Shown in pieces: positions 7,732 to 55,000 of a stretch of 64,000 nt of DNA. This DNA is from Schizosaccharomyces osmophilus (lineage: Eukaryota > Ascomycota > Schizosaccharomycetes > Schizosaccharomycetales > Schizosaccharomycetaceae): NCBI RefSeq assembly GCF_027921745.1, contig NC_079240.1, forward strand, positions 1,729,001-1,793,000, read 5' to 3'. Position 1 is the first letter of the stretch, and the number at the start of each line of letters is the position of its first letter. The translations under genes and the position numbers were made by a program. The notes beneath the pieces were generated by a model that was given only the letters and a program-made list of their open reading frames with translations, was not told the origin of the DNA and made no database searches.

Positions 7732-9894
7732 TCATAGAGGCGGTAAGGTCCTGTTTTTTAGTATAGCAAGAGACTCTTCAAGTGATGAAACTTTAGCAAG
7801 CAAAGCGTCAGCTCTAGCATCACTGTAAGATTTTACTTCTTCCATAACTTTTTCATTAATCGTTTTAAGTCGTTCATTTTCAGCTTGTAGTCTGGCAACT
7901 TCCTTGGTTTGCTCGCTAGCGGATGTGGAAGCACTTTGATATTGCTGCGTAATAAAATCCAAATCTTCTTTTTGAGTTTTATTAAGCTGGCTAAGTTTAT
8001 ATTTTTGTTCATTGGAATCTACGAGTTGGCCACGAACTTCGTCTTCTGGCATATTTTGAATGTATTTAAAGCCAAAATCCAATTGTTTGGATAAATGTGT
8101 AATTTGCTGTTTTAAATCAGCAACCTCATTTGACCTTTCGGAATCACTCTTCTTTCCTGTTTCCAACTTTTGATGGGATTTTTCGAGTTCGACTTTGAGT
8201 CCTCGTACTTGTTCTCGATAATCCTGTAAAGTATCTGTAAGTTTAGCTATTTGTTGTTCCAATTCATCAGCATGAGTTTGTTTTATATTTTTCACGTTGA
8301 CAGCTTCGTGCAACTCATCTTCAACCATTCGTAATCTTCTCTGCAAATACTGGACAGCGGCACCCTGTAAATCATAATTTTGTCCAAAATCAGAGGTATC
8401 TGGCCCTCGCTGCGAAGGAAATGATTTAGTTGCCGGATTCGAAAAGGAAGAAGCTACTTCCTGAGATCCTTTGGAAGGAGTTTGAGATACTTGGAAGGTG
8501 AAAAGGTTGTCATCTGGATATTTTAAGACGGTTTCATTAACACGAGAAGGGGACTCTTGAGAGGGTTTAGGTTCTGCAACGGCGAAATAAGCAAGGTCTA
8601 CTAAAGGCTGCAATGGCCAAGAGTTAGGCGAGGCTTCATTATTAATCCATTCAGCTACTTTACCTGCTGCCTCATTTGTAACATCGGCAAGGTGTACAGA
8701 CTTTGCATCAGCATCGGTAATAGCACCAGTATGCTCGGCACGGTTCGAAAACACATTAAGGTCTGCGACCTGAGCGTTTTCTTCCGTAGAGGAATTAAGA
8801 GCAGCCAACACGCCAACAATGTTGACAAGAAAGCTTGCATTATAAGAAGACTGGAAGCTTCTGATGACATGTTCCACCGAATTTATATGAAGAAGTCGAA
8901 GAATTGGACAAGGAAAATAAGAAATTGTGCTAGTAACGCCCATATAGGCATCCATGTCGTAAAATATTACAGCACCAAAACGAATATCAGAGTTGAAAAG
9001 AGTAGCCGTAAATGGGGCATGCCTTGAAGAGCATACCCAGAATGAAACGTCTGTGTTATCTTGAATTTCTATGTCTGGCGACCAAGATTGTACCAAAATC
9101 GATACTGAAGATAGCCATGTCGTGAGCAAATTACCAAGAACATCATTGGAAACAAAGCAGAAAACTGGTGTATGAAGCTTGGGTAAAACAGACTCTAAAA
9201 ATTCCTTCAAGAAAAGGAATTTAGAAGAGGCTTTGGCGTGTTCGGATATGTTTGGGACAGTGAGTGATTTATTCTCGTCTGGTTTAGCAGACGGCGAGTG
9301 TGACCCATCGCGAACCTCCTTTTCGTAAAGCCAAGGGTGTTTAGCAATCTTATGAGCTGACTGTAAAAATAAGCGAATTTTTTCTTGGATGCGCGCATCA
9401 CTTGGACCTGTGCAGAAGTGGTCGATGCAAAAAGCAAAATATTGGACAAGGCGATGCATCATTTTACGCTGGATGGGAGACATAGAGAGCCCTACGTCCA
9501 AAACGGAATATTCGGGTTTGGGAAATCCAGAGGAAGGTAACGATAGCGAATCCGAATTGGAGGACTTGTTTGTAGGGAATAGTTGCTGCGTTGAGGGGTA
9601 GTCGCCGACATCTTGCGTCAAAAAATCGTTTTCTGCCGGATCAAATTCATGGTGGAGGAAGCTCGTCTCATGTTGCTTAATTGGAGGTTGTTCACCATCC
9701 AAAGAAGAATCGAGCGACTGGTCTAACTTGCGTTTATGATTTGCTGCCTTCAAAAGCCAAGCATCTTCCAAAAATCCAGGACACTCCTCTTTGGATATCC
9801 ATTTCTTTGAGCAATTGGATGGAATAAATATTTCATATTTGGTATCACTTTCATTCACAATCGTAGAATCCATAGATTCCTGATACTCACTCAT
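7732..9894 (-). CDS. ccq1: Telomere/heterochromatin protein Ccq1
   Basis: Shelterin subunit that in S. pombe binds Tpz1, recruits telomerase through phospho-Thr93 binding of Est1, and recruits SHREC and CLRC. It is one exon of 720 aa (S. pombe protein about 735). The N terminus is unstructured and holds a TQ site at exactly T93-Q94 (context DFLTQDVG shortened by one residue: FLTQDVG), the site phosphorylated by Rad3/Tel1 in S. pombe. Residues about 140-440 fit the HDA2/HDA3-like (SHREC-type) domain. Residues about 500-715 form a long heptad-rich coiled coil (RLRMVEDELHEAVNVK onward). A second TQ lies at T102-Q103. It is divergent from srp54 and convergent with ubp22, as in S. pombe. The identification rests on domain order, the T93 site and neighbours. 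Confidence 0.93.
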   Translation of the reverse strand: MSEYQESMDSTIVNESDTKYEIFIPSNCSKKWISKEECPGFLEDAWLLKAANHKRKLDQSLDSSLDGEQPPIKQHETSFLHHEFDPAENDFLTQDVGDYPSTQQLFPTNKSSNSDSLSLPSSGFPKPEYSVLDVGLSMSPIQRKMMHRLVQYFAFCIDHFCTGPSDARIQEKIRLFLQSAHKIAKHPWLYEKEVRDGSHSPSAKPDENKSLTVPNISEHAKASSKFLFLKEFLESVLPKLHTPVFCFVSNDVLGNLLTTWLSSVSILVQSWSPDIEIQDNTDVSFWVCSSRHAPFTATLFNSDIRFGAVIFYDMDAYMGVTSTISYFPCPILRLLHINSVEHVIRSFQSSYNASFLVNIVGVLAALNSSTEENAQVADLNVFSNRAEHTGAITDADAKSVHLADVTNEAAGKVAEWINNEASPNSWPLQPLVDLAYFAVAEPKPSQESPSRVNETVLKYPDDNLFTFQVSQTPSKGSQEVASSFSNPATKSFPSQRGPDTSDFGQNYDLQGAAVQYLQRRLRMVEDELHEAVNVKNIKQTHADELEQQIAKLTDTLQDYREQVRGLKVELEKSHQKLETGKKSDSERSNEVADLKQQITHLSKQLDFGFKYIQNMPEDEVRGQLVDSNEQKYKLSQLNKTQKEDLDFITQQYQSASTSASEQTKEVARLQAENERLKTINEKVMEEVKSYSDARADALLAKVSSLEESLAILKNRTLPPL

Positions 9895-19607: not shown

Positions 19608-19742
19608 AAATTGTATGTCTATAACGTATTATTCTGTTGGAGACGTGAATTGTCCTTTTGAATATTAACGATATTCCTACTGGTACATATCCCTTTTTTT
19701 CATTTTCGTAGTTATAGTTTCTGCATTTTATGGAAATTGTGC

Positions 19743-22700
19743 ATGGCGCTTTGCGTTCACTCGTTTAGATCGACAGCAATTGATACAGCGATATCGAGTC
19801 AATTCTTTTCTTCTGAAGCATCCTTGATCTTTGTACAAAATTTGAACATTAATGTTTATCGCATAACCGCTAAACGTGACTTAGATCTTTTTACAACTAT
19901 CCCTTTATGGTATGCAGTAAGGCATTTACAGACCTATCGACCACAGGGTCTTAATCGGGATTATCTTTTTGTTGTTTTACAAGATGATACATACTTTACG
20001 CTTTATTGGGATGAAGACTTTCAGAAAGTAAATATCGATCATCCTCCTCTACGGTATCGAATATCTTTTCCCTGGAGTCGTTTCACCAAAAGTCATTGTT
20101 TGGTAGACAAGAAAATGCGTATGATTTTTTTAAGTATAGATGAAGTTTTTATGCTGTGTATAAATATCTTGTCTGCTGAAGAAAGACAAAACTCTGGTTG
20201 TTCCATTAACGACGGTTTCCCCATCTCTTTTCCAGTGAACCCTATACTTGACATTTGTCTGCTAAACTATCCGAAAATTCCTACTTTAGTTGTTTTACAC
20301 AGTGAAGGTGTTGATTCGGCTATAACAGCTTTTCCTATTGACGTGGAGTCAAAGAATTTAGAAAATGGGATTCGTCTCTTCGAGTCCGTTCTACCTTCCA
20401 AAATTATCCCTTTCGGAAAACGAGGATTGCTGGTTTTGGACAGAAGAACCATCCATTGCTTTTATCGTGGTGGAGTAGTTACCATAAATTCACTGCCGAG
20501 AGTTTATAATCATTGGGTACCTCTTGAAGGTTATGATAATCATTTCATTGTTTCTGACGAAAACGGTGATTTTTATGCAATTTACTCAAGCATTTTGGCT
20601 GGGAAACTATGGAATTTGACCTTCGAAAAGTTGGATATACTACCCGTCACGTTCATTACAAGTTTAGTCTCACTCAATGATGATCTTTTATTTATTGGTA
20701 GTCATGGGAGTTGTTCAAAGCTCATATCTCTTCAAGACCTAAGTGATACTTTTACCTTACCGAACTTGGGGCCTATCCACGATATTAATATGTACTCAAG
20801 TGACCAGAGTCAAACTATGCTTGTATGTGCTGGATCTTTTAAAAATCCATCTATATTGCACTATAGGCATGCTTTATTTATGAACTTCCTTGGATTTTTT
20901 GAATGTTCTGGTATTGTTCGCGTCATGGTTCTCTCTTCGCATGTGGTTGAAAAACTGTTCATCGTCTTCGTCGATGAAACTTTGGTTTTCGATATCGATA
21001 TTAAGAAAGGCTTTCAATTGGAGCTTGTTCCTGAGCTTTCAATTAACGAAAGAACGATCGCGCTGTCGGGAACCGGGACCGACAATCAATTTATTCAGGT
21101 AACTTCAAAATCCTTGTACATTTATGATTCCATGAATTTATCAAAAGTAGTACATCTGGATAAAATTACAAATGCCACTTGTTATAAAGATTATTCTGCA
21201 ATAGTTCTGGGTGGATTAGAGCTTGTTATATTTCAAAAAGACGTCGAGATATCTCGAATCAAATTTGATAGCGAGATTAGCTGCTTAGAAATGGCCAGCG
21301 AGTCAAACATTGCTATTGGCTTTTGGTCCAAAGAGGTTCTAATCTTTAACTTTTTAATAAATCTTGATTCCGCATTTGTGTTTAAGTCCAAACTTCCTTC
21401 ACTACCTCGAAACGTTATATTGGAAAATTTCAATTCTGAAATCAGTCTTTTCCTTGTTTCATATGGCGACGGATTTTTGGTTTCATATGTCCTATCAAGA
21501 AACATTTTAGTCTTTACTGAGATGAAAAAATTGGGAACTACCCCGATAGTATTTTCTCGGTTGAATGTGCATATTGGAACATACATAATTTGTAATAATG
21601 ATCAGCCTCATATGGTTTACGGATTCAATGGAACTCTTGGATATATGCCATTAAATATGCCTGTTTCTTATGATGTCTGCCAGTTTTCGAAAGAAATAGG
21701 CACAACTGGACTCGTTGCGGTCTCGTCAAAAGGTGTTTCCTTCTTAGAAATGGATAGAAGGCCTCATTTATACGCGAATAAATTTCCTTTGAGTCATGTT
21801 CCTTTGCGTGCAGTAATATTAGACCAAATACTGTTGACCATTACTCTTCATCCGCACTCTAATAGCACAGATGGTCTAAACGAAAGATACTCATTATTAC
21901 TCTTAGACTATTCTAGCGGTAAACAATTGGAGAAATATGATTTTCCACTGTACGATCGATGTGAAGAAATTCTAAGGATAGAAAACGGAACAATAGTTGT
22001 TGCTGTTAATAATCATCAGATAGTTGATTTACTCCCGTCGAGTGGTAAGTTATTGTTGTACCGATTCATGCCAGATCTGATCGCACTTAATTGTATAAAC
22101 ACTGTTCAGCTTTCTGCTGCTGTGAGCTGTTTATCTGTGTACGAAAAGGGGTTTATTGCTTCTTTTGGGCATTTCGTTGGTTTTTTTGATATCTTAAATG
22201 AAAAAATGGGAATGAAAACTAAATTTTGTGTTGGCAATCTGATATCACAAATAATTGTTGACAGCGAACAAAATATTTTAATTGGGGACGTCGTTGGATT
22301 CATCACTGTTTTGAGACTGGAAAATTATACGTTTGTAATGTACGCAAGATACAATATTGGTGAACGTATACTTACTGCTCTTTGCTTTGAAAGAAATAAA
22401 TACGTTTTTGCATCCGATAGCGGAGTATTGCACATTGTTAGACTGGAGACTATCGCGGAGTCCGAACAAATAAATGGACAAATAAGACTTATTACAGAAG
22501 CACAATACCGGCTTCATGATAAGGTAACCCGATTTTGTTTGAATACGCTTCCCCGAAATAGTCCTTCTGATAAAATGCTAGAACCTCGTTTATATTTTGG
22601 TACAAGAAAAGGCGCGATCGGAAGTATATTTTCCTTAAATTCGAATATCAATGAATTTGACGAACTCGCGAAGAAGATACGACAGCTTGAACTCTCATAT

Positions 22701-22901
22701 CTGCCGATAATCGACTTAGAAAGCATCGAAGAAGAAAATTCTAATGAGATCCCTTTCGTGAATGGGGATATCATCACTAACACAAAAGCTTGGTCCTCGA
22801 CTCAGATTTTTCGATTGTGTCGACTTTTGGAACATGCTGAAAACCTTAATTCCCATGAGAAAGTTCGTACACTTCTGGATGAAGTACAACTTCTTTCATA
22901 A
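19743..22901 (+). CDS. rik1: Rik1, DDB1-like subunit of the CLRC H3K9 methyltransferase complex
   Basis: A beta-propeller protein of the DDB1/CPSF160 family. In S. pombe, Rik1 is the DDB1-like scaffold of the Clr4-Rik1-Cul4 complex that makes heterochromatin. Single exon, 1052 aa from the first ATG; a TTG two codons upstream is not used because the ATG aligns with the start of the DDB1 fold. The N terminus (SSQFFSSEASLIFVQNLNI) parallels the DDB1 opening propeller strand. The C terminus holds the DDB1-like stretch ILIGDVVGFITVLRLENYTF and LYFGTRKGAIGSIFSLN. Overall it is diverged from DDB1 itself. Its neighbours (amylase homologue, tif221) match the S. pombe rik1 locus, so Rik1 is preferred over Ddb1. 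A search against both would confirm. Confidence 0.85.
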   Translation: MALCVHSFRSTAIDTAISSQFFSSEASLIFVQNLNINVYRITAKRDLDLFTTIPLWYAVRHLQTYRPQGLNRDYLFVVLQDDTYFTLYWDEDFQKVNIDHPPLRYRISFPWSRFTKSHCLVDKKMRMIFLSIDEVFMLCINILSAEERQNSGCSINDGFPISFPVNPILDICLLNYPKIPTLVVLHSEGVDSAITAFPIDVESKNLENGIRLFESVLPSKIIPFGKRGLLVLDRRTIHCFYRGGVVTINSLPRVYNHWVPLEGYDNHFIVSDENGDFYAIYSSILAGKLWNLTFEKLDILPVTFITSLVSLNDDLLFIGSHGSCSKLISLQDLSDTFTLPNLGPIHDINMYSSDQSQTMLVCAGSFKNPSILHYRHALFMNFLGFFECSGIVRVMVLSSHVVEKLFIVFVDETLVFDIDIKKGFQLELVPELSINERTIALSGTGTDNQFIQVTSKSLYIYDSMNLSKVVHLDKITNATCYKDYSAIVLGGLELVIFQKDVEISRIKFDSEISCLEMASESNIAIGFWSKEVLIFNFLINLDSAFVFKSKLPSLPRNVILENFNSEISLFLVSYGDGFLVSYVLSRNILVFTEMKKLGTTPIVFSRLNVHIGTYIICNNDQPHMVYGFNGTLGYMPLNMPVSYDVCQFSKEIGTTGLVAVSSKGVSFLEMDRRPHLYANKFPLSHVPLRAVILDQILLTITLHPHSNSTDGLNERYSLLLLDYSSGKQLEKYDFPLYDRCEEILRIENGTIVVAVNNHQIVDLLPSSGKLLLYRFMPDLIALNCINTVQLSAAVSCLSVYEKGFIASFGHFVGFFDILNEKMGMKTKFCVGNLISQIIVDSEQNILIGDVVGFITVLRLENYTFVMYARYNIGERILTALCFERNKYVFASDSGVLHIVRLETIAESEQINGQIRLITEAQYRLHDKVTRFCLNTLPRNSPSDKMLEPRLYFGTRKGAIGSIFSLNSNINEFDELAKKIRQLELSYLPIIDLESIEEENSNEIPFVNGDIITNTKAWSSTQIFRLCRLLEHAENLNSHEKVRTLLDEVQLLS

Positions 22902-23101
22902 ATGGCATATTACTTCAGTATGTAATTTGTTAATCTAGGCAAGTGATGTGGAAGTCTACATTATGAATTTTAAAAAGAAGAGGGCTTCTATTTGCTAACC
23001 CATAAACAAGAATCAAGAGTTAATGATTTTGGAATATGCGTCAAAAAACCTATCTAGGTAAAGGAACTGGGAGAATTGAAGATGAAGTGACATCAAAATC
23101 A

Positions 23102-24653
23102 TTATTTACTTTCAGACGGTACTAGTAACTGTTATTGTTAGCAAACCTTTCATGAAAGCATGAAGACACATACCATTGGAAGCCCGTATTTAATTGTAAT
23201 ATTCAATTTCTTTTCGGTGGCTTGAATACGAGATTTACTGAAAGCATCCACGTATACCTGAGTCGGGTTTTGGGAGAAAGAGGACGTATCTACAATGATT
23301 GTCTTTCTTGTTTGTTTTCCGCCGTTGCATAGAATAACAAGAACTCCTGTTCTGTAAAATGCGTAGACTCTTTTATCAAGATATATTTTTTGAGAAAGTA
23401 GAGCGCAAAAATTTGGATCTTTGGCTATCAAGCTCTGTCGAAGGTGGATAAATGTTGATATACACTCAAATAAAAAGCTTGTAGTATCGTATTTGCTCAC
23501 CCACAGCCCTTCTCGATTATCAGGATCGTCACCACCGCTGAATCTCTGTTCTTGACCATAATATATCACGGGGATACCATCCGAAAAGATCGTTGCAGCA
23601 ATGGCGTTTAGCGCTAACTAATTCATGTTAATAATTTTTGTCTTCAAATATTGTTCTCAAAAAACTTTAGGTTAATTAATGACTTACAGCATTATCTTGT
23701 GTTTGAGAGAAGAACCTAGGCACATCGTGATTTTCAAGGAAGTTGCATAGTATGGTTGTATCTCTAAAATTATGTCTGATATCCAACACACCTTTCTGAT
23801 AATACTCAAACATAGGAATTCTGGGGGATGAAAACGTCTCGCGCAACTGATAGTAAAGAGGGAAATTAATGACTGAAGGCATATAGTTTTGGTAAGCTCC
23901 TGCATATTTGGGGTTACCATGGAAGATTTCACCCGTTGTGAAGATCTTTGCTGCTTTAACAAATGGAGGAAAGAAGGATTTTTCAACATGTTTGGCGGTG
24001 TCAATTCTCATACCATCAAACTTGTAGGTGCTGACCAAATCACTGATCCATTTTTGAAAAAACTTACGTACACTGGACTTTTCTGTTTTTAAATCAGGTA
24101 AATTCACACAATTGTCTCCAAGCCAGCCTGTAACAACGTCTTCTTGATTGTTATAATCCTGAATGTACTTCCAGGGGTGGAAATCATTGGCTTGATTAAA
24201 TGGATTGAACTGCGAGTAGTCAACTGCCTCCGTTCCAGGATGTACCATATGGTTGACAACGACATCGACCATACACAACATTCCACGTTTGTGAAGATTA
24301 TTAACCAAATCTTGAAGATCTTCGGAAGTGCCGAAATGACTATTGAGTTTTGTAAAGTCCTGCGTCCAATAGCCATGGTAAGGTTCTCCATAGCCTGTTT
24401 GGCCTTCGATATTCTTTACGATGGGACTAATCCATATGGCTGTGCAACCAAGTGATTGAAGATAGTCGAGTTTCCTTATGACACCCTTCCAAGTTCCTCC
24501 CAAATATGTTCTTCCTTGAGATGGATGTTCAAAGTCATCTTCATCCCTAGCAAATCGATCCGTAAGCAGTTGATATATGACTTGTTTTCTCCATGTGTCG
24601 TTGTATTCCTTTCCTTTTACAAAGGTATGTTTTTGAAAGAAGCAACAGGCCAT
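23102..24653 (-). CDS. GH13 alpha-amylase homologue (three exons)
   Basis: Glycoside hydrolase family 13 protein. Exons are 24653-23688, 23617-23174 and 23128-23102, giving 478 aa, the length I recall for the S. pombe orthologue SPCC11E10.09c. Visible: (beta/alpha)8 motifs [14 protein letters not shown] (nucleophile Asp218), GEIFHG (acid Glu242) and LENHD (Asp310). Exon 2 restores [20 protein letters not shown] with the calcium-dependent amylase-type GQEQ stretch. The last coding exon is 27 nt, ending LLVPSESK. The start MACCFFQ has no signal peptide, unlike secreted amylases, so a cytosolic role is inferred. It is convergent with rik1 and divergent from tif221. Confidence 0.93.
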
Positions 24654-29161: not shown

Positions 29162-30883
29162 ATGACACGAAGCTATGGCATTTTCATCGACGCTGGTTCG
29201 AGCGGATCACGACTTCAAATCTATTCATGGACGGTTTCTAAAGATAAACAAGACACAAATAAAGGAGCTAGTCTTCCTCTGATTGAACTTGGGGATGGTA
29301 ATGAAGGAGACTGGTCCATCAAGGTACAACCGGGCATATCCTCATTCGCCAGACGGCCAAAGGACGTGGGAGAGAAGCATATAGAAAAGCTACTTGATCA
29401 TGCCGAGAAGGTCATTCCTAAAGACAAGCATAAAAGCACTCCTGTGTTTTTAAGTGCCACAGCTGGTATGCGGCTTTTACCTCCGAAAACACAAAAAAAA
29501 ATATTGAATAATGCTTGTCATTACATAAGAGATGAATACGACTTTGCACTTCCTGATTGTGAATCCATGATTCAGGTTATCGATGGAAAAGCTGAAGGTA
29601 TGTACGGTTGGTTGGCAACGAACTATTTGCTTGGAAATCTTGATTCACCTTCTGGATCTTCAACGGGATTTTTGGATATGGGAGGTGCAAGTGCTCAAAT
29701 TGCCTTTGAAGTTCCCCCTGAAGTACAAAATGAATATGATGATAGCGTTAGCACGGTACTTCTAGGTTTGGATAATGGTAAGCAGATAGGCTATCCTCTA
29801 TTCGTTACAACCTGGCTCGGTTTCGGTACAAGTCAAGCACACAATAGATACTTGAATTCTTTGATTGAAGGAAATCGCGATTCTCCTTCCAAAACCATCG
29901 AAGAACCTTGCTCACTTCGCGGAAGACAATATTCCAAAGATGGACAATCGTTTCTGGGCACGGGAGATTTGGAACTATGCCTAAAACATACGTATACCCT
30001 TCTCAATAAAGAGGCACCCTGCTCACGAGATCCTTGTGGTTTTGACGGCATTTCAATTCCACCGATTGATTTCGTCAACCACGAGTTTGTCGGCGTCTCG
30101 GAATTTTGGTATACGACAAACGATGTATTTGACATGGGCGGAAGCTATCATTTTCCCAACTTTTACCAAAAGGTAGCTGATTACTGCGCTTCCGACTGGG
30201 AATCGATGCTTTCACGCTTACACAATCATCAATTATCTCCATCTACAGATGAAAGCAAGCTAGAAAAGCTTTGTTTTAAAGCTTCTTGGGTCTTAAATTT
30301 TCTGCATGAAGGATTCGGTTTTCCTAAAACTAATACAACTGATATTGACTACCAACAAACGGACGGGCTTGAGGTAATTCCAGCATACCATTCTCACTTC
30401 ACTAGCCTTGAAAAAATTGAACGGACCGAAATAAGCTGGACACTTGGTCAAGTTCTTTTGTACTCATCAAATCAACAATTCCTTCAAGACCCCAAATATG
30501 CGAACTATCAGTTGAATACATTTGGAAAATTAACTCCTTCCAGAGGGTTCTTCCAAAGTAATATGAATGGATATATTTCCTTCATAAGTGTTGTTCTTTT
30601 CTTATCCATCTTTGGCTTTTTGTCCTATTTGTTGACTAGCAACCCTAAGAGAAGGTCAAGGATCAAAAACCTTCTGCTTCGAGTTCGTGGTATGAAGGGT
30701 CGGTATATTGTGAACGCCCATGGAGATTACGAAGATATCGAAGATTTTGAGGATGATATGGAAATGACGAACTTCTCAAAGTCGAAGACTGCTCCTATTC
30801 GCACCACATCTAGCCATATTCTTGCTGATCATTTAGCATTAAATTTTAGTCGAGAGCGAACACCAAGATCTCCTTTACCTTAA
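29162..30883 (+). CDS. ynd1: Nucleoside diphosphatase/apyrase Ynd1 (GDA1/CD39 family)
   Basis: Golgi apyrase that hydrolyses UDP/GDP released by glycosyltransferases, keeping sugar-nucleotide antiport running. Single exon of 573 aa (S. pombe Ynd1 about 572). The apyrase conserved regions are visible: ACR1 DAGSSGSRLQIYSW (about 11-24), ACR2 SATAGMRLL (about 100-108), ACR3 IDGKAEGMYGWLATNY (about 140-155) and ACR4 GFLDMGGASAQIAFE (about 169-183). One transmembrane helix lies at about residues 477-500 (ISFISVVLFLSIFGFLSYLL), followed by a basic, then acidic cytosolic tail, the Ynd1 topology (lumenal catalytic domain, C-terminal anchor). Confidence 0.95.
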   Translation: MTRSYGIFIDAGSSGSRLQIYSWTVSKDKQDTNKGASLPLIELGDGNEGDWSIKVQPGISSFARRPKDVGEKHIEKLLDHAEKVIPKDKHKSTPVFLSATAGMRLLPPKTQKKILNNACHYIRDEYDFALPDCESMIQVIDGKAEGMYGWLATNYLLGNLDSPSGSSTGFLDMGGASAQIAFEVPPEVQNEYDDSVSTVLLGLDNGKQIGYPLFVTTWLGFGTSQAHNRYLNSLIEGNRDSPSKTIEEPCSLRGRQYSKDGQSFLGTGDLELCLKHTYTLLNKEAPCSRDPCGFDGISIPPIDFVNHEFVGVSEFWYTTNDVFDMGGSYHFPNFYQKVADYCASDWESMLSRLHNHQLSPSTDESKLEKLCFKASWVLNFLHEGFGFPKTNTTDIDYQQTDGLEVIPAYHSHFTSLEKIERTEISWTLGQVLLYSSNQQFLQDPKYANYQLNTFGKLTPSRGFFQSNMNGYISFISVVLFLSIFGFLSYLLTSNPKRRSRIKNLLLRVRGMKGRYIVNAHGDYEDIEDFEDDMEMTNFSKSKTAPIRTTSSHILADHLALNFSRERTPRSPLP

Positions 30884-31439: not shown

Positions 31440-33210
31440 ATGGGAATTCCCGGGTTATGGGACGAATTTCGAGATTGCTTTCGTGAATCAAGTATGTCAA
31501 GTTCACCTGAGAAGAATAGGAAGTTAATTTTTTTAAGATCTTATAGAAGTCTCCACGAGTTGCTGGAATGCAGAAAAACGCTGTTTGAGAATTGCTGTTG
31601 ATGCAGCAATATGGTCGGTACAGATTCAAGCTAGTCAAGGTGGTACCAATCCGGCATTAAGGACGCTATTTTATCGACTTTGTCATTTACTCGAATGGGG
31701 TATTCACGCTATCTTCGTCTTCGATGGTCCAAACAAACCTCCTTGGAAACGAAATCGCCATGTTCGACCGAAAGTCTCAGGAAACTATGAATCGATGAAG
31801 CATCTCATCCAGCTTTTTGGAATGCAAGTATGGGAAGCTCCAGGAGAAGCTGAAGCTGAGTGCGCGAAGCTTCAAAGGTTGCAACTGGTCGATTACGTCT
31901 TGACGGAAGATGTTGATGCTTTCGCTTTCGGAGCTACTAAAGTTATACGATGTAGTCCTGCGGAAAGGAAATCGTTGTTGAATGTCAGAATCTATGAAAT
32001 GGAAAAAATTTCCCAAAAACTCGACATCAATCAGCCTGGTGTTATATTGATTGGCTTGATGAGAGGAGGTGATTACCATTCAAAAGGTATAGAGCATTGT
32101 GGCCTTCAAACAGCGATCGGTGCTGCAAAACTAGGATTCGGTGATCGTTTAATTTCTTCTGATCATCTAGATACCTGGAGGTCTCAATTACAACACTGCA
32201 TTCAAGTAAATAAGTACAACACTTTTGGCTTCAAACGCCCAAATTTCATCATCGACCAGGATTTTCCTGACCCTTTAGTAAAACATTATTATACACATCC
32301 AGAAGTTTCTTCCAAAGAAACGTTGAAATTACACTTTTCGCAGTTTGATTGGTCTCAAAAACCTGATGTTAAAGCTTTGTATACTTATGCTCAAAAACGA
32401 TTTCAATGGGTGAGCCTACAAGGAAGTATCAAGTTTATAAATAACATAGCTTATCCTTTACTTGTCTTTGAACTTCTTCATTCTACTGTTATAGACTCAA
32501 ATATATACACAGCCTCTCATAAGACACGAAGAAACAAATCCACAGGCATGATATTAGAAAAACAAATTACTTTCTATCCAAACAAAATCCTGGATTGCGA
32601 ATGGCATATTAAAACGAACGTACATGATAATGAAGCAAATGCACCGTTAAAGAATCAATGGAAATCACTATTAGAAGAGAACACATCATGGATCCCTGCC
32701 TGCTTTATAAAAACTGCTAAATATGCAAGAATTTCTCAGTTTTTTGGAAGAACAAATTCTGACTTGGGACGTTTAGTCCAAAAAACCAAGAGACTATCTT
32801 TGGACCCAGAAGAAAGTCGTAATTCCATCCATGCCGAGAGGGAAAAAACAACAGTTACTAAAAAGCCAGCAGGTCTTCTTCCAACAAACTTGTTTTCGAA
32901 ACCACGCACACAATTTTCTCAAATAATACCGCAAACTACCGATGATTCTTTTACGGATGATGATCTACCAAAAATTCAGGAGATTCTTCCTAGAAGCTCT
33001 ATAAAAACAGGAAATAGAGAAGATCAAAGCCAACCCGATAGTCGTTTTAACAAAGATCTGACAGTTAAATCCAAAGGGCATCTTTCGAAAGATCAATTCA
33101 TAAAAAAAATATACATTAGAGAAAGCCTTAATGGAAGCTGGAAAGAAGATATAGGAGCAAGCGGGAGGAGGAAAATGTATGAAAATATCCCCATTATTGA
33201 CTTATCCTGA
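31440..33210 (+). CDS. GEN1/Yen1-type XPG-family structure-specific nuclease (two exons)
   Basis: Rad2/XPG-family nuclease of the GEN1 class, which resolve Holliday junctions or cut flaps. Exon 1 is 31440-31491 (MGIPGLWDEFRDCFRES); the intron has a GTATGT donor and ends at 31537 or at 31546 (both keep frame), giving 574 or 571 aa. All acidic active-site positions are present (first acceptor numbering): Asp39 (IAVDAAIW), Asp80 (VFDGPNKPPW), Glu121/Glu123 (PGEAEAEC), Asp142/Asp144 (TEDVDAFAFG), Asp196 (GGDY). A helix-hairpin-like KGIEHCGLQTAIGAAKLG follows, as in GEN1. A C-terminal region with WIPACFIKTAKY may be the GEN1 chromodomain-like fold. The N terminus and PWKRNRH region resemble filamentous-ascomycete GEN1 homologues. 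A short XPG paralogue remains possible. Confidence 0.85.
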
Positions 33211-33258: not shown

Positions 33259-34569
33259 TTAAGACTTCAGAAAAAACTGTAACTGATGCAACAACTTCAT
33301 CCATTTAACGCGTATCCGATTCTGACTTGAAGGATTACCTTCTTTTTTGCTATTTATTATGAAAGAAATCTCTTGAATTAGCATCTCCTTCTGTCTCTCA
33401 TTTTCTTTTGCCGACAATAATTTTTGAGAATGCAGCAAATGCTTCATCCATCTCTGACAAACTCTTTCTACTAAACCCGTCTTTTTTTTCTTTTTATAAA
33501 ATGCAATAACCTTTTGGTATATCTTCTGATAAGGAACTCGATCTCTGTTTAATAGATAATACATTCGAGAATATATATCTGGATAGCTATTGTTGGTAAT
33601 ACCGGCTGCAGATTTAAATTGGGGAGCAGCCGTCGACCAATAAATTATGTAGCACCATGCTAATTCAGAAAAACGGATCTTGTAAGTTTCTGATAGTTCC
33701 TTGCATAAATCAACGGCAGCTGGTATATCACCAAGGAATCCAAAAGCACTGGCGACCGAAAGGACAGTATGCGAAGTAGGGTATGAGGAATGATTTCTAT
33801 CAATCAAACACTCTCCTGATTTCCCTTGACCTATACCCCAAACCCTTTTGAGTAGATCGCGGATTTCCTCAATTTTTCCATCTCTTGCTAGTCCGACAAT
33901 AAGATAGTCATAAGTTGTGGAATTCGGAGCGAACCCGTTTCTTGGAAAATCGACATCTACTGCTTCTAGCATTGCAGTCGATACTGGCTCTTGGGTAGGG
34001 CTTCCCTTCCAGGCGGGACTACTAAATTTATTCAATGACCATCTGGACCCTCCATAATTTCCCAAGACACAATTCAAATAATTCAAAGTTGGGTGTATTT
34101 CGTTCTTTTTCACGGTTGTGATCACTTTATCAGCGATGGGCTCGTGTCCAATATACATAGCAATTCGTAGAATATGGGTAAAATCTCCAATGTTAAGTTG
34201 TATTCCCAGTTCATTAGCATCGTGAAGAAGTAAGTCTAGTATCTTTACAGTGGTTTTTTTTTCTCTTTCAGTCAATCTATTCCCACTGTCGAATAGCTTA
34301 AACGAACGAAGAATCAGCTGAAACTCGACAGGCTTCAACTCATTAAGACTATTGTTATTACGAAGTTTTAGGTAATTCAAAAGATATAATGAAGGAGTCA
34401 ATGGCCGAAGAAAGGTTTGTATAGGACCTGTAACAGCAGACTTGAACTTTTGGTCATCTGCATTATGCAACAGTTCCTCAAAAGAACGGACATGTAAACG
34501 TCGGACCAAAGTTAAAGGGGATAATGCTTCAAATTTTAAATTTGTATAAAGAAATCTTAACATTCGCAT
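33259..34569 (-). CDS. Mitochondrial ATPase-expression (Aep-like/PPR-type) protein homologue
   Basis: Orthologue by position of S. pombe SPCC11E10.04, annotated as a mitochondrial ATPase expression protein, thought to act on mitochondrial mRNA. 436 aa from ATG at 34569 (MRMLRFLYTN...), chosen because the next residues form a basic amphipathic presequence-like stretch (LVRRLHVRS). The open frame continues upstream without an ATG, so an unseen 5' exon joined near 34633 (acceptor TGTACAG) is possible. The body is all-helical with PPR-like units (YDYLIVGLARDGKIEEIRDLLKRVWG; SHTVLSVASAFGFLGDIPAAVDLC). Such proteins diverge fast, so function is inferred from position and fold only. Confidence 0.7.
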   Translation of the reverse strand: MRMLRFLYTNLKFEALSPLTLVRRLHVRSFEELLHNADDQKFKSAVTGPIQTFLRPLTPSLYLLNYLKLRNNNSLNELKPVEFQLILRSFKLFDSGNRLTEREKKTTVKILDLLLHDANELGIQLNIGDFTHILRIAMYIGHEPIADKVITTVKKNEIHPTLNYLNCVLGNYGGSRWSLNKFSSPAWKGSPTQEPVSTAMLEAVDVDFPRNGFAPNSTTYDYLIVGLARDGKIEEIRDLLKRVWGIGQGKSGECLIDRNHSSYPTSHTVLSVASAFGFLGDIPAAVDLCKELSETYKIRFSELAWCYIIYWSTAAPQFKSAAGITNNSYPDIYSRMYYLLNRDRVPYQKIYQKVIAFYKKKKKTGLVERVCQRWMKHLLHSQKLLSAKENERQKEMLIQEISFIINSKKEGNPSSQNRIRVKWMKLLHQLQFFLKS

Positions 34570-34951
34570 TGTTTCCCCATAACCCAACTTCAAAATGGAC
34601 AATAATGTTGTAGTAGGTAGAAGGAAGTAAGCAACCTGTACATGATAAAGTAAGCCAGAAAGCAAGAGAATATATCTGGTTTTCCAGTACGTGATATGTG
34701 AAGAGTTTTGATTTTTTAATTAATGCTTTTACTTTTAAAAAAGAAATTCCGAACGATTGAATCGAGTAATTTATTTAGAGTCAATAGTCAAATTTAAAAA
34801 ACAAAAACGAAAGGAGAATCAAGTGAAGTTTGTCAAATTTATACTAAATAATTCTATGTTTATGTCAAATTTCGACTTCAATAGTTCTCATTTTACGGTG
34901 AATAATTATAGACCTGCAATTAATAATCCTCAATTAAACAGCCTTATTCAC
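34570..34951. other. AT-rich spacer between the mitochondrial gene and dynamitin
   Basis: Very AT-rich 382-bp tandem spacer. It would hold the dynamitin poly(A) site and the promoter, or 5' exon, of the ATPase-expression homologue. No separate gene is seen. Confidence 0.5.
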
Positions 34952-46092: not shown

Positions 46093-49000
46093 ATGGACGA
46101 GCTGATTGAGTGGGTTGTAATATACCCTCAAATTTTTGATATTTTAGAGCATATTAAATATGTTCCCACAACTCTTTTGCAGCGAATTCGCTTACATCGC
46201 TCTTGGTCAAAAGTAGACTACGATTTATGGTTTTTGTACGCGTCTGATGAAAAACGAAAGGGCTGTAAAATCGATTGCTATGGGCAATTGTACTCATATG
46301 ATGAGTTCCTTGTGCTTGAAGATCAAAGAATTGCCAAATTAAATGAGCTAGCTAAAACTCGCAGTTCTAGCGAGAACTCATACTTTTTACGACAATTGTT
46401 ATCAAATGCAAAAATAAATCATGTTCCGCTCGTTGAATTGGGTGGTGAGCTTTTCTTCCAGTTCAATGAACCTCTGCCCACCACTCTTGTGCAAACAGAA
46501 AGCGTTAAAGAAAATCTTAATCGTGTAAGTCCTTTTCTTGTAAGAAAGCAGCCTTTGCTCCTGGCTGGCCCAGAAGGCATGGGAAAGACATATTTTATAA
46601 CTCAAATTGCTGCCTTACTTGGACAAAGGATAGTTCGTATCCACCTTACGGACTCTACCGATCCTAAAATGCTAATAGGAACGTACACTTGCCCTCGTCC
46701 AGGTGAATTTGAATGGCAACCGGGTGTTTTAACCCAAGCTGTGAGACACGGAAAATGGCTTTTGTTAAGCAATATAGAAAAAGCACCTGCCGAGGTTTTA
46801 AGTATATTGTTGCCTTTGCTAGAAAAACGACAACTTGTAGTTCCCTCCCGAGGGGAAACTATTTATGCAGCAAATTCTTTCCAAGTTTTTGCAACGACTT
46901 CTTCAAACTCCACTATATTGGGACAAAGACTTTGGAAGACTATTGAGATGGTTTCTGCTCCTCATGAATGTATCGAAATTGTTTCAACAATATATCCAGA
47001 GCTTTCTTCCATTTCCCGTACCCTATTTTCTGTTTATAATGATATTTATGATCTCTTTTTAAATAGAACATTTCTTGCAGTTTCTAGGGTATATCGGCGG
47101 TTATGCCTCCGCGATTTTTACAAATTTATGAAGCGCGTTGCTTTTCTGTATAGACATTATCATGTGTCTGTTGATCATACAACAATCCCCCAAGAGCTTC
47201 AAGATGCTGTTTTTAAAGAAGCTATTGATGTATTCAGTGCTTTTATACCAAATAAACAGGGTATAGATAATGTCGTGCGTAACATTGCCATTGACTTAAA
47301 TGTATCACCTGAAAAAGCTGAGCATTTTTTCGAAACCATTCCTTCTTTCCATGATTCTGAGACTGCGGTCACGGTTGGCAGATCTAAATTGCCCAAAGTA
47401 TCTTCTAGTGGTTTCTCTAGTAGTAATCCATATGCTTTTACTTCTTCCTCTTTGTCATTGCTAGAAAAGATATCTGTTGCTGTTCAAACTAATGAACCTT
47501 TACTGCTTGTTGGTGAAACAGGTACGGGTAAAACAACTACCGTACAGCTTTTGGCTAATTTGTTGGGTCAAAGAGTCACTGTTATCAACATGTCCCAGCA
47601 AACAGAATCATCAGATATGCTTGGCGGTTATAAGCCCATAAACGTTACTACACTAGGCCTTCCTTTACATGAAGAATTCTTGAGTCTGTTTGAAACCACT
47701 TTTAGTGTAAAGAAAAACATGAAATTTTTAGCAGCAGCCTCTACTTCTGCCAGAAGATTTAGATGGAAAACCTGTTTAAAAATATGGAATGAGGCCTTAG
47801 CGCTATCTAAATCGCTTTTCTCCAGGACGCGGTCTCAGGAAAACCCTGTGAAGCGTCAAAAGAGATTGGCAAATCAACCAGCTTTAGAAAATCGTTGGAA
47901 AATGTTTAGAGAAGAAGTTGAACAATTTAGTAAAATGCTTGAAGGTGGCTCAAAAAGTTTTATGTTTTCTTTCGTTGAAGGTGCATTGGTTAAAGCTATA
48001 CGTTCAGGGCAATGGGTTTTGTTGGATGAGATAAATTTAGCATCCATGGAAACCTTAGAACCTATTGGGCAATTGTTAAATTCTTATGAACCTGGCATCT
48101 TACTAAGCGATCGTGGTGATGTTAATCCTGTTACACCTCACCCTAATTTCAGGTTATTTGGTTGTATGAATCCTTCAACGGACGTGGGCAAACGGGAGTT
48201 AGAAACTTCGCTTAGGTCCCGTTTTACAGAAATCTACGTTGAATCTCCTGATAGAAACCTTTCAGACTTATTATCAATCATAAGTAAATATATAGGAACT
48301 CTTTGTATTGGTGATGATTACGTTATTCGTGATATTGCCGAGTTATACCAGATTGCCAAACGCCTTTCTGTTGATGGTTCCCTAGTTGATGGTGCCGGAC
48401 AGAAGCCTCATTATACCATTCGTACATTGAGCAGAACACTATGCTATGTGGCAGAAATTGTACCTATTTATGGTCTTAGACGTTCCTTATATGAAGGTTT
48501 TTCTATGTCATTCTTAACTTTGCTTGATCAAAATAGTGAAAACATACTATACAAATTTATTGAACGCTATACGTTAGGAGAGATATCGGTTCAACAGAAG
48601 AATGCTATTCTTAGGCAAATTCCAAAACGACCGGACGTCGGTGATTATATCGCCTTCTGTCACTATTGGCTCAGAAAGGGTTCATTTCCTGTTAGAGATC
48701 AGGAACATTACATTGTAACTCCCTTCGTACAAAAAAATCTCCTAAATATTACTCGTGCTTGCTCGACTAGAATGTTTCCAATTTTAATACAGGGTCCTAC
48801 ATCTAGTGGTAAAACGAGCATGATCGAATACATAGCCGGTAAAACGGGTCATAAATTTGTGAGAATTAATAATCACGAACATACCGATCTTCAAGAGTAT
48901 CTCGGCTCATATGTAACGGATGACAAGGGTTCTTTGGTTTTCAGAGAAGGTATCCTCGTCGAAGCTCTTAGAAACGGTTACTGGATTGTACTTGACGAGC

Positions 49001-52000
49001 TGAACTTAGCTCCCACTGACGTTTTGGAGGCTTTGAACCGTCTTCTTGATGATAACCGTGAATTGTTCATTCCCGAAACGGAATCGCTCGTGAAACCACA
49101 TCCTGACTTTATGCTATTTGCAACCCAAAACCCGCCCGGTGTTTACGCTGGTCGTAAACACTTATCTCGCGCATTTCGAAATAGGTTTTTGGAAATTCAT
49201 TTTGACGATATTCCTGAAAATGAACTTGAAACTATTTTGCATATGCGTTGTAAAATAGCTCCGTCTTACGCTGCAAAAATTGTTCAAGTATTCCGTGAAC
49301 TTTCTCTTCGTCGCCAAAGTACCAGAATTTTTGAACAGAAAAATTCCTTTGCTACTCTTAGAGACTTGTTCCGCTGGGCTTTTCGTGATGCAGTAGGTTA
49401 TCAACAACTCGCTGAAAACGGATATATGCTCCTGGCAGAACGAGCACGCGATCCAAAAGATAAATTTGCAGTACAAGAGGTGATTGAGAAAGTGATGAAG
49501 ATCAAAATTAATACTGACAATCTGTATAATTTGGACTTTATAGACTCAATTAGGACTGATGCTAAAGTTGGTCCCCTTGATAATGTCATATGGACCGCGC
49601 CAATGATTCGGTTATTTTCCTTAGTTTGGCACTGCCTTCAAGCTAAGGAGCCTGTTTTACTAGTTGGTGATACCGGCTGCGGTAAAACCACTGTGTGTCA
49701 GGTTTTGGCTGAATGTCTCTCCAAACAATTACATATTGTCAACGCTCACCAAGATACAGAGAATGGCGATATTATTGGAGCTCAAAGACCTTTGCGTAAT
49801 CGATCTCTCATTAACAACACACTTCATATTCAACTTTCTGAGAAGTTTAATGTAGCTCAAGAGGATTACCCTGTTGAGGACTTGATCTCAAAATTTGACA
49901 GCCTTTCTCATTCAGAAAAAAATGATGACTTATCTGTTGTTATTGAAAAACACATAAAAAAGATTAACTCCTTATTTGAGTGGCACGATGGTGCCCTTGT
50001 TTCAGCAATGAAAGGTGGAGATTTTTTCTTGCTTGATGAAATTAGTCTTGCTGATGATTCTGTACTTGAAAGACTCAACAGTGTTCTTGAGATTTCGAGG
50101 ACATTAACATTAGTTGAACATAATGATGCTGCTGCTGTTTTAACTGCCGAGGATGGATTTGCATTTTTTGCGACCATGAATCCCGGAGGTGACTACGGAA
50201 AAAAGGAACTTTCTCCTGCTTTGAGAAATCGATTTACAGAAATTTGGGTACCTCCAATGACTTCGGTTGACGATATTCTTCAAATCGTAGAAGGGAAATT
50301 AATTCCTACCAAAAAACACCTTGGTGAACCATTAGTACAATACGCTCACTGGCACAGTAACGTCTACCAGAGTGGCAACATAATATCAATTAGAGATGTT
50401 TTATCGGCCGTTGATTTTATAAATTCTTCTGAGCTTAGTGACGATAAGGCCATATTATTCCATGCTGTTTCGATGGTATTTATTGACGCACTTGGTGCTA
50501 TATCCGCGGTTGGTTTTGGCAGAAATAGGAACTTACTTTTTGATGAGCGTAACAAATGTGCATCCAAATTGGGTGCACTTTGTGGAAGTGATTTTACATA
50601 CTCTGTTACCGAGAATTTAATGATAAGATTTACCGAATCTTCTTTCTATATTGGAGACTTCGATATCAAATTGGGATCTAACGTAAATCCTGACTCCACT
50701 TATAACCTCAGGACACACACTACCAAAGTTAACGCTGCTAAGGTGGTTCGTGCTCTGCAAGTTCGAAAGCCAATCCTTTTAGAAGGCAGCCCCGGTGTCG
50801 GCAAGACAAGTCTGATATCGGCTTTGGCCCGAGAGTGTGGTTATCCATTGGTTCGAATTAATCTCTCTGACCAAACTGATTTAATGGATCTTTTCGGCTC
50901 TGATGCACCTGTTAGTGGAGGTGAAGGTGGCCAGTTTGCTTGGCGTGATGCTCCGTTCTTATCTGCAATGCGTCATGGACATTGGGTTCTTCTTGATGAA
51001 TTGAATTTAGCTTCTCAAACAGTATTGGAAGGCTTAAATGCTTGTCTCGATCATCGTGGTGAAGCTTATATACCAGAACTGGACAGAGTATTCAAAGCGC
51101 ATCCAACTTTTAGAGTGTTTGCGGCACAGAATCCACAAAACCAAGGTGGTGGCAGAAAAGGACTTCCTAAATCTTTTGTTAACCGATTTACTGTAGTCTA
51201 TGTCGAGCCTTTGCTGCAAAGCGATATGCTTGAAATAGCTAGCCAAAACTATCGCCAAGTTGATGAAAACATGCGATTGCATATCATCGAGTTCATGTTC
51301 AAGCTTCAAGAGTATGTTGAGATTGATGCTTCGTTTGGAGTTAGTGGTAGCCCATGGGAGTTCAACTTACGTGACGCCATGCGTTGGTTACAGCTCTTAT
51401 CTGAAGCCGAAAAATATACATGTGTTTCTCCAGCTGAGTATTTGGAGGTTGTGGTATTGCATCGAATGCGAACAAATAATGATCGCCAACGCGTGATCAG
51501 GCTATTTGAAGAAGTGTTCGGTGTAAAATATGAACCACGCATAATTAGTTCTGAGCTAGATTCAAATGTCCTGAAAGTTGGCCATTCATTTCTGGAGAGA
51601 AGTTCACTCACTCAAGACACAGCTTTAGACGACACTAAGCTGTTGCAATCTCAATACGATGTGGTCGAGTCTATGATTACTTGCATAAACAAAAATTGGC
51701 CTTGTATTTTGGTAGGTCCTTCGGCTTCTGGTAAGACGTGCACTATTCGACTCCTTGCAGCTGTCTGTGGCGTAGATTTGAAGGAAATGGCAATTAATTC
51801 GGAAATTGACACCATGGATTTATTAGGTGAATATGAACAGGTTGATATTTCTAGAAAGATTTCTGCCTTCTTGTTGGACTTGTCCCATAATGTTCTAAAT
51901 CTTCTTATAGAGCACAGAGACCTTGAGGAAATACTTAAAGGGACATCACTTTTGAGAGTTTTACAAACCAGCTTTGTTACACTTGATGAAGGCCTCCATA

Positions 52001-55000
52001 CTTTGGAGTGGGTAATAGCCGAAATTCGATCTATTCGACATCATACCGCCATCTTTAAACACTTGCGACCATACTTCACTCTGGCAGGCAAGCTAATTAA
52101 AGAAGCGTCTGTGCCCGCAACAGGAAAATTTGAATGGATAGATGGCTATTTATTAAGAGCAGTCGAGAATGGTCACTGGTTGGTTCTCGATAACGCCAAT
52201 CTTTGCAGTCCCGCTGTGCTTGATCGTCTTAATTCTTTATTAGAATACGGCGGTACTCTGACTGTTAACGAAAGACCCACGGAATCCGGAATGCCAAAGG
52301 TCATAAAGCCTCATCCTAATTTCCGACTCTTTTTAACAGTGAACCCTTTTTATGGAGAGCTTTCAAGATCGATGAGGAATCGGGGTGTTGAAATTTATAT
52401 GTTGAACAATGGTCTAACGTCTTTGGATCATCGTCAACTTTCAGTGCTATTACCTTCCCCCATTTGCTCTGCCGTAGACGCGGGATCATCTAGCTTTTCT
52501 TTTGTCATTGACATTCATAGACGTCTAAATGAGTTTCCAACAACACTCGTATCACCATACGTAATAGCCGCTGTTGTCTTTAGCTATTTCTCGAATGATC
52601 AGTTGGATTGTCTAAAAAAACTTTCTGATGATAATAAGAAAACGCTCTCAATTGAGAAGTCACCTTATATACACGCGTTGGAACAAGCTGATTTTTCGAA
52701 TTGTCAAACTCCTAATGAGGTACTTACCTATATCAAAGCTTATGATTATCCGTTGTTATCAGCATCAATGAGCCTTGTTTCTATTATGAACGATTTCACA
52801 AATATCGCATCCTCAAATTGCGGGTCTGAAGTATTTTGGAAGGCTTATTTGTTGAACATTCTTTACGCTGCTCAATTCGACTTAAAGCATCTTAATCAAG
52901 AAGTTTATTCTTCCGTACAATCTGGCTCTATAAATACTTACGTTCTTAAAAGCGCATACGCATTCTTACATGGTGTCTCTTATTATAAAGGTGCTTTATC
53001 TTCAGTTTGGAAGCTTTTGAATGACCTAAGTGTTTACATTTACAATTCAATTGATAAATTACGTAAAGACAGTTCGTTAGCAAGTGTTGACGATCTTCAA
53101 AATTTTCTTAACTTAATTGCACTGTGGAAGAGCATGTATGAATGGACTGGTACTTTTGAGTTCGATTTCAGTAGGTTCCATTGCTATTCATTAATGCTTA
53201 AGGAATGGTCATCTAAGTTTGTCTCTGATCATAACTCAGAATATTTAGATGCCCCACATAATCTCATTAATAAATTTACTGAGGCGTTGCAGTTATCTAC
53301 TGGTGAACATATGCAAAATATTTGGTCCGAGTACCATCCGCTAGTACCCAAAACGAAGGAGCACTGGTCGTTATGGTCAAAAATTGACATTCTGTTAAAG
53401 GAATATTTGCGTGCAAATACTCCTTCTTTGGGCATGGAAGCTACAGCTTCTCATGTTGTTACTACGACTTTATCATTGCTTATGAAAGTGACTCAACAAC
53501 ATGAATCTCAGGATTTGCAGTCATATATGCAAATTTTGGAAGAAGGTGTAGTAGCACTTAAAAACTCTAAACAGGATCAGCTTCCTGAAGCATTTTATTC
53601 AACATTCAGTTGTTTGGCGGCCTCGGATCTATTAACAATATACACAGCCGATCTCAATAATTTCAGCGTTTCATCTGAAGCATTTACAAATTATGTGCGC
53701 GCTGCTCTGTATACGAGAGGCTCAATAAGTCCACTATCCGTCCTCACCAGTCTCAATTTTAATGCATCTCAAATTCCTTTTGCAATTCTTTTTGATTATG
53801 ATTTCTTTTCTTTAGTTAACGGAAAAACGTTCGATTTAATCACACGTGCCTTTGCTTCAATTGATGAACAACTGAATATGGCTTCTGTTAAAAGATACGA
53901 AGATATGCACCACACCCTAATGAGGCATATAACTGAACGTTCTAAGCACTTTACTGAAAATCCTTTAGAAAGAGCTAGTATCTTGCTGTTACAACGGATT
54001 CCGCTGCTCATAATTCCTGAAATCAAAGGTGATAGACTCTCTGCAGATGAGGAGAAAATAATAAGACCGTTGACATTACCATACGGAGAGTTGAAAGAGC
54101 AATCCGTTTTAATTGTGGATGATATTGTGTCCTACTTGGAAAGTAGTGCACGTTTCAAAACATCATACAAAAAGCATATTTTGAATGCATTAGGTTATTT
54201 GCGGCAGTCGTTGTCGACCGCTAATCATGAGAATGCCTGTAAGAATCAGGCTGCTGCTTACATCCATTTTGCGTATGGTTTGTTGCTTGCCTATGTTCCT
54301 GATAAGCCTTATGATCCAGCCCTTCTACCTTTATTATCTTCTGCAAATGGCAAGGGGGTCTTAAATTCGCTTTCTGGAGAGCTAGAAGTTGTAAAGATGA
54401 TGGAAGATAATAAGTCTGGCAAGGAAGAAAACCTACTCACCAAGTCAATTTCTTTGCGCATGGAGGAAATAAATAAGTCTATTCCGACTAGTACTGGTGT
54501 TTTCCGTTCTCTTGAAAGTAATAGTACCTCTTTGTTTGATGAATTGCGATTTTTGATGGATAACGTTGTGAATAACTCATACGCTCTCGATTTGTCATTA
54601 AAACTTATGCAAAACCCAGACAACTCGACGTTAGAGGAAGCTAAAATATTCAAATATAAATGGACTGCTTTCGTTGGAAGATTGCGTGAAGCATATTCTC
54701 AATATACTGATATATTCGAGATAGTTATTTCTTTGATTAGTTACATCATTTACGGTATTGATATGCTCGTCGCACAAGCTAGAAGGTTGCTGGACAATCG
54801 GGTCAGTGCATCCGCTTCTTTGATGTCTCACTTAGTTAGTCCTAAGAAATTATCAAAGCCGCTTTTGTTCGAAGATGTGCAGGATATTATACGGTTAACT
54901 TCTGACTTACAATTAAATGCAGCATTGAAATTTGAGGTTTTATTGTTCGCAACGGCGAAACTATGTAAGGAGAAGAATGACCTTCCTCAATCTTCGGCAG

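Follow-up and report, generated by a model that had tools for sequence, protein, structure and literature searches.

A predicted fungal-type GEN1/Yen1-class nuclease in the fission yeast Schizosaccharomyces osmophilus

Does any fission yeast encode a Holliday-junction resolvase of the GEN1/Yen1 class? In the model organism Schizosaccharomyces pombe, Mus81-Eme1 is largely what meiosis relies on; a passage in a review suggests the missing GEN1 as the reason for this dependence (PMC6316474). Bailly et al. (PMC2908289) write, in the passages concerned, that fission yeast has no gene for GEN1 and that the gene was lost in 'fission yeasts'; the species in their figure legend are A. nidulans and S. 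pombe, the latter as sole member of its genus. The absence from S. pombe is also reported in passages of two reviews (PMC4519697, PMC6316474), so that all three papers state what an earlier note on the present DNA had put forward. That note had also proposed that a fission-yeast gene encodes a GEN1/Yen1-class nuclease, and we have analyzed this gene here within a window of 64,000 nucleotides of S. osmophilus, meaning the whole stretch of DNA under study.

The gene belongs, as had been supposed, to a relative of S. pombe and not to S. pombe itself. Residues 1-700 of the Midasin encoded in the same window are identical at 472 of 700 positions (67%), gap-free, to PDB entry 6or5 (4717 aa), which we take to be the S. 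pombe Midasin. The GC content of the window is 37.95%. A passage of the S. osmophilus genome paper gives 38.27% for this species and 108.2 million years for the split between S. pombe and S. octosporus (PMC10085805). The two GC values are close, which does not separate S. osmophilus from its close relatives S. octosporus and S. cryophilus; S. japonicus is richer in GC, and the group formed by the other three is therefore the likelier source. In our reading, the gene very probably specifies a fungal-type GEN1/Yen1 Holliday-junction resolvase, function included, which this fission yeast has retained by vertical descent; we infer its activity, dimerisation, cellular role and vertical inheritance, as well as the direction of the loss. 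As an enzyme, it belongs to a known family and has nothing unusual about it.

Gene structure and nuclease core

The coordinates proposed earlier, 31440-33210, are exact. However, this span is not one open frame, a point absent from the earlier note, since a short intron splits the gene. The features needed here are listed below, CtGEN1 being the GEN1 protein of Chaetomium thermophilum.

31440..33210, + strand: GEN1-like gene, two exons, ATG at 31440, TGA ending at 33210, about 574 aa
31440..31491, + strand: exon 1, N terminus MGIPGLWDEFRDCFRES, aligned from Met1 of CtGEN1 (6grb)
31492..31537, + strand: intron predicted from sequence, 46 nt, or 55 nt if it ends at 31546, GTATGT donor, TTAAT at 31524, TTTTTTTAAG acceptor
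31538..33210, + strand: exon 2, open frame up to and including the stop codon, encoding the larger part of the nuclease core and the C-terminal tail
31440..31761, + strand: XPG N-terminal domain (residues 1-92, span including the intron), Pfam PF00752, 26.2 bits, cut-off 22
31819..32073, + strand: XPG I-region with E121, E123, D142, D144 and D196 (residues 112-196), Pfam PF00867, E 9e-22, 77.7 bits, cut-off 24.9
32065..32151, + strand: H2TH / helix-hairpin segment GGDYHSKGIEHCGLQTAIGAAKLGFGDRL, aligned with GGDYLPDGIPGCGIKVACQAAKAGFGKEL of CtGEN1

The TTAAT at 31524 is the sole YTRAY branch-like site in the scanned stretch 31492-31546. Proteins spliced at acceptors 31537 and 31546 score 235.9 and 235.4 bits, respectively, against CtGEN1 (phmmer), and similarity thus gives no choice between the two. 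We adopted acceptor 31537, which yields a protein of 574 aa, and residues are numbered accordingly. The spliced frame contains no internal stop. Its codon score is 0.085, those of the 11 other ORFs of the window being 0.062-0.109, and its GC3 of 0.313 is the lowest of the 12 ORFs, in a range that extends up to 0.405; both GC and GC3 sit with the values of the other 11. The GEN1-like gene is real and intact.

The XPG_N and XPG_I domains lie close together, 19 residues apart according to Pfam. The complete acidic active site announced in the earlier note is indeed there: on alignment to the family, seven of the seven catalytic acids are found, namely D39, D80, E121, E123, D142, D144 and D196. 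Their human GEN1 counterparts are D30, E75, E134, E136, D155, D157 and D208, as given in a passage of PMC5039027. The motifs MGIPGLWDEF and PPWKRNRH are both present as well. As for the segment described as KGI..CG..A, it exists in the protein, but its spacing has to be corrected, KGIEHCGLQTA having three and not two residues between CG and A. The H2TH role of this helix-hairpin segment is taken from a passage of PMC4695337.

Between the beta3 acid and the first Glu of the I-region, the GEN1-like protein and CtGEN1 each have 40 residues; human GEN1 has 58 there, and human FEN1 and EXO1 have 71. The corresponding count for Rad2 (45) is void because the Rad2 chain was pieced together from two matched stretches, and that for XPG (71) comes from a chain titled XPG/FEN1 fusion. 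The helical arch of FEN1 and EXO1 is replaced in the GEN1-like protein by a short loop of CtGEN1 length. In passages of PMC4695337 and PMC5039027, the hallmarks of GEN1 are a two-metal acidic site, an H2TH motif, a lost or reduced FEN1 arch and an extra C-terminal domain, which in human GEN1 as well as in Yen1 is a chromodomain.

Family assignment

The spliced protein was compared by phmmer with 177,635 distinct PDB sequences. CtGEN1 comes out on top (6grb and 5cnq, 235 and 234 bits, E 1.2e-68), with a match that covers residues 1-336 and starts from Met1. Like the XPG_I match (E 9e-22), it lies far outside what chance would produce. The other matches are weaker, with 83 bits for Rad2, 65-67 for XPG, about 64 for FEN1 and 53 for human GEN1. 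Identities follow, with 138/335 (41.2%) for CtGEN1, 79/237 (33.3%) for Rad2, 71/216 for the XPG chain, 71/274 (25.9%) for FEN1 and 23.5% for human GEN1. CtGEN1 and human GEN1 are themselves identical at only 72 of 298 positions (24%). Among PDB sequences, the best match is CtGEN1 and not FEN1, XPG or Rad2, at 235 bits versus 83 for the next family.

In a seven-sequence tree built on 255 columns, the GEN1-like protein and CtGEN1 are grouped apart from the rest with a support of 99.9/99, whereas human GEN1 falls with XPG and Rad2 at only 57.3/43. With so weak a placement, a single clade of fungal and animal GEN1 is neither supported nor rejected by this tree, and the kinship between the two is thus taken from the literature, in a passage of PMC4270448. 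Altogether, the lead of about 150 bits that makes CtGEN1 the nearest solved relative, the equal arch length and the 99.9/99 support uphold the earlier call, and we consider it nearly certain, judging from sequence comparison, that the protein is a GEN1/Yen1-class nuclease of the fungal GEN1 type.

The idea that the gene encodes another XPG-family nuclease, of the Rad2/XPG, FEN1, EXO1 or Asteroid type, could draw on XPG_I and XPG_N being common to the whole family and on a partial match of the exon-2 protein to the NCBIfam rad2 model, but the gap of bits, the arch, the tree and the weak Asteroid score all speak against it, and we regard it as the least probable of the alternatives. The other families were rejected on scores and arch length. 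For the Asteroid type, XPG_I_2, which we take to stand for Asteroid, reaches only 17.2 bits (E 0.004, cut-off 24.2), versus 78 for XPG_I. For the Rad2/XPG type, the partial match of the exon-2 protein to TIGR00600 amounts to 112 bits versus a cut-off of 1204, and this protein of 574 aa has only 19 residues, and no long spacer, between its N and I regions. Relatives of the gene were not found in the genome-contig, viral-contig and phage collections, among which no fungal collection is known.

The comparison with known systems can be summarized as follows. CtGEN1 (PDB 5CO8/5CNQ, 6GRB), which passages of PMC4270448 and PMC4695337 describe as a demonstrated junction-selective Holliday-junction resolvase, is like the present protein in its core, the length of its arch, its H2TH segment and its acids; it differs in a diverged C-terminal region and in its host, the present one being a fission yeast, from a group reported to have lost GEN1 (PMC2908289, in part). 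Human GEN1 (PDB 5T9J) shares the family core, the acidic residues and an arch shorter than that of FEN1, but it scores below FEN1 and XPG, has the longer arch loop and is not the nearest sequence in our small tree. Rad2 from Saccharomyces cerevisiae and human XPG have the same XPG_N and XPG_I core and give the next scores; unlike the present protein, however, they possess a long N-I spacer (the I-region match of the ERCC-5 chain 9pd5 is at 762-969), and they fall outside its clade. Yen1 from S. cerevisiae belongs to the same family by the literature, the comparison with it being drawn from there and not from a direct alignment.

By analogy with CtGEN1, the core would use its H2TH motif to hold one arm of a four-way junction, and the protein would dimerise on the junction. 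Two opposite strands could then be cut symmetrically, by two-metal-ion catalysis with the seven acidic residues, and the short basic loop that stands in place of the FEN1 arch may become ordered in the dimer only. In the cell, such a resolvase could clear joint molecules beside or behind Mus81-Eme1.

The C-terminal region

Two features of the C-terminal region deserve to be described.

32518..32601, + strand: first part of a candidate chromodomain-like C-terminal module of the GEN1 type, Pfam PF18380 GEN1_C, E 0.012, 16.8 bits, below the cut-off of 26.7
33187..33207, + strand: extreme C terminus IPIIDLS, candidate SUMO-interaction motif, from sequence only

A Pfam scan of a 101-aa piece of the C-terminal region gave GEN1_C and no other family. 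This match becomes weaker with longer pieces (E 0.026 and 0.2), and GEN1_C is not listed by a Pfam scan of the full protein or of an 81-aa piece; in 14 control genomes, the GEN1_C profile gave no match. A low-confidence model of the 101-aa piece (pLDDT 49) contains three strands followed by a helix. The best Foldseek match of this model has an E of 0.11 and no chromodomain occurs among the best 50 of 854 matches, so that the model is not counted as evidence. A single-sequence AlphaFold model of the exon-2 protein was set aside (pLDDT 31). When the last 269 residues were compared with the PDB by phmmer, three chance-level matches were obtained (E 0.9 to 2.4), and CtGEN1 was not among them. A C-terminal GEN1_C domain is thus hinted at, and the evidence for it is suggestive only.

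The last residues of the protein, IPIIDLS, presumably resemble a SUMO-interaction motif (SIM). The protein contains a single S/T-P site, and no CDK consensus site is complete in it. According to a passage of PMC8986097, Yen1 binds SUMO via two working C-terminal SIMs, and a passage of PMC6316474 describes Yen1 as regulated by CDK and Cdc14, with CDK keeping it outside the nucleus. The candidate SIM would thus be a likeness to Yen1 and the lack of a CDK site a difference from it, and we weakly suggest that the SUMO arm of the regulation is kept in the GEN1-like resolvase and that the CDK arm is missing.

Locus, gene order and the history of GEN1 in fission yeasts

The neighbours of the GEN1-like gene were recognized with Pfam, and those that bear on gene order are the following.

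19737: CPSF_A protein (rik1-like), Pfam
23676: alpha-amylase, Pfam
27124: PAXNEB protein (elp4-like), Pfam
29162..30883, + strand: GDA1/CD39 nucleoside phosphatase (ynd1-like), upstream neighbour, Pfam PF01150, E 3.7e-105
33259..34665, - strand: ATP13/PPR mitochondrial protein, downstream convergent neighbour, Pfam PF12921 and PF13812, putative 5' end
34952: dynamitin-like, Pfam
36420: peptidase C13, Pfam
37840: Cys/Met PLP enzyme, Pfam
40861: Pex24p-like, Pfam
43695: AAA helicase, Pfam
46093-60279: Midasin, one uninterrupted frame, 4728 aa
60514: ABC transporter, Pfam

Only 48 bp separate the stop of the GEN1-like gene from the convergent ATP13/PPR gene. In S. pombe, passages of three papers identify rik1 as SPCC11E10.08 (PMC4065261), elp4 as SPCC11E10.06c (PMC7563549) and pair SPCC11E10.01 with YFR055W (PMC1929147). 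Between the elp4-like gene and the PLP gene, the window has five Pfam-recognised genes, versus four numbers in the serial S. pombe numbering. We assume that YFR055W encodes a PLP enzyme of the kind specified by the Cys/Met PLP gene of the window, that ynd1 is the proper name for the GDA1/CD39 neighbour, that the SPCC11E10 numbers 05c, 04, 03 and 02c stand for ynd1, the PPR gene, mug1 and gpi8, respectively, and that the window gene without an S. pombe number between elp4 and the PLP gene is GEN1. On these assumptions, the numbering leaves the GEN1 position empty, which suggests loss on the S. pombe line. The presumed S. pombe gene order fits a loss of GEN1 in place, on the basis of the Pfam-recognised genes, the numbering being no proof.

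We propose that the S. pombe line lost GEN1 once it had diverged from the group of S. octosporus, S. cryophilus and S. osmophilus. This evolutionary reading is likely, its basis being the literature and the presumed synteny, with one species covered. A fuller version of it can be put forward tentatively, and we hold it for somewhat less than an even chance: the S. octosporus group would have kept a working GEN1 at the ancestral locus, S. pombe alone (or nearly so) would have lost the gene less than ~108 million years ago, the reliance of S. pombe meiosis on Mus81-Eme1 would be derived, and the resolvase would be controlled by SUMO binding at the extreme C terminus and not by CDK/Cdc14. That crossover control differs between the species, as the earlier note suggested, is a proposal.

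One would also wonder whether S. pombe has in fact kept a relative of GEN1 at another place in its genome, the statements of absence being wrong or due to a diverged sequence. A candidate exists in the uncharacterised XPG-family protein SPAC12G12.16c named in the earlier note, a name not found in the main texts of the papers searched. Moreover, CtGEN1 and human GEN1 are so distant from each other (24% identity) that searches with the human protein could miss an S. pombe orthologue. On the other hand, Bailly et al. describe fission yeast as lacking a GEN1 gene, and the two reviews report the same for S. pombe (PMC2908289, PMC4519697, PMC6316474, each in the passages concerned). We consider a relocated orthologue unlikely, at about one chance in a handful.

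Another hypothesis is that this lineage gained GEN1 from another fungus, in which case a loss in S. pombe would be unnecessary. The good likeness to GEN1 of a filamentous fungus (41%) and the reported lack of the gene in S. pombe would agree with such a transfer. GEN1 is however widespread in Dikarya. The gene also has a short intron, uses codons like the 11 other ORFs of the window, is only 41% identical to CtGEN1 and is flanked on both sides by ordinary eukaryotic genes. A horizontal origin was rejected on codon use and neighbours and appears very improbable to us. Slightly less probable still is an intact-looking gene that is unexpressed or whose product is no longer competent as a resolvase: the divergent C-terminal region could be read in that way, but the seven acids are kept, the H2TH segment aligns and no frameshift or stop interrupts the frame, and a pseudogene was rejected on the lack of stops and the seven kept acids.

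Returning to a vertically inherited resolvase, its presence in a relative of S. pombe contradicts the plural 'fission yeasts' in the loss statement, and it would narrow that printed claim (PMC2908289, in part). No printed report of GEN1 in any fission yeast was found in the literature searched, from which subscription papers mostly fall outside. In the papers found that name S. japonicus or S. octosporus together with GEN1 or Yen1, the passages on GEN1 or Yen1 belong to reference lists or deal with budding yeast. Words beginning with nuclease or GEN1 do not occur in the main text of the JaponicusDB paper, nor do words beginning with nuclease, resolvase or XPG in that of the S. osmophilus genome paper (PMC10085805), 'endonuclease' escaping both counts. 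The database annotation of these genomes may already name the gene. A GEN1-bearing sister species makes the missing-GEN1 explanation of the Mus81-Eme1 dependence of S. pombe testable, and, if our reading is true, the GEN1-plus sister lineage would be the natural comparison for a derived dependence.

Two further observations concern the locus. The rik1-like and alpha-amylase genes are neighbours (19737-24653), the alpha-amylase gene lying between the rik1-like and elp4-like genes, unlike in the presumed S. pombe order, where alpha-amylase would be.09c and lie outside rik1; this indicates a possible local rearrangement or an error in the presumed order. At 7732-9894, a weak match to HDA2-3, a subunit of a histone deacetylase complex, was obtained below cut-off (E 0.00046), and its position beside SRP54 suggests to us that the product could be the telomere protein Ccq1.
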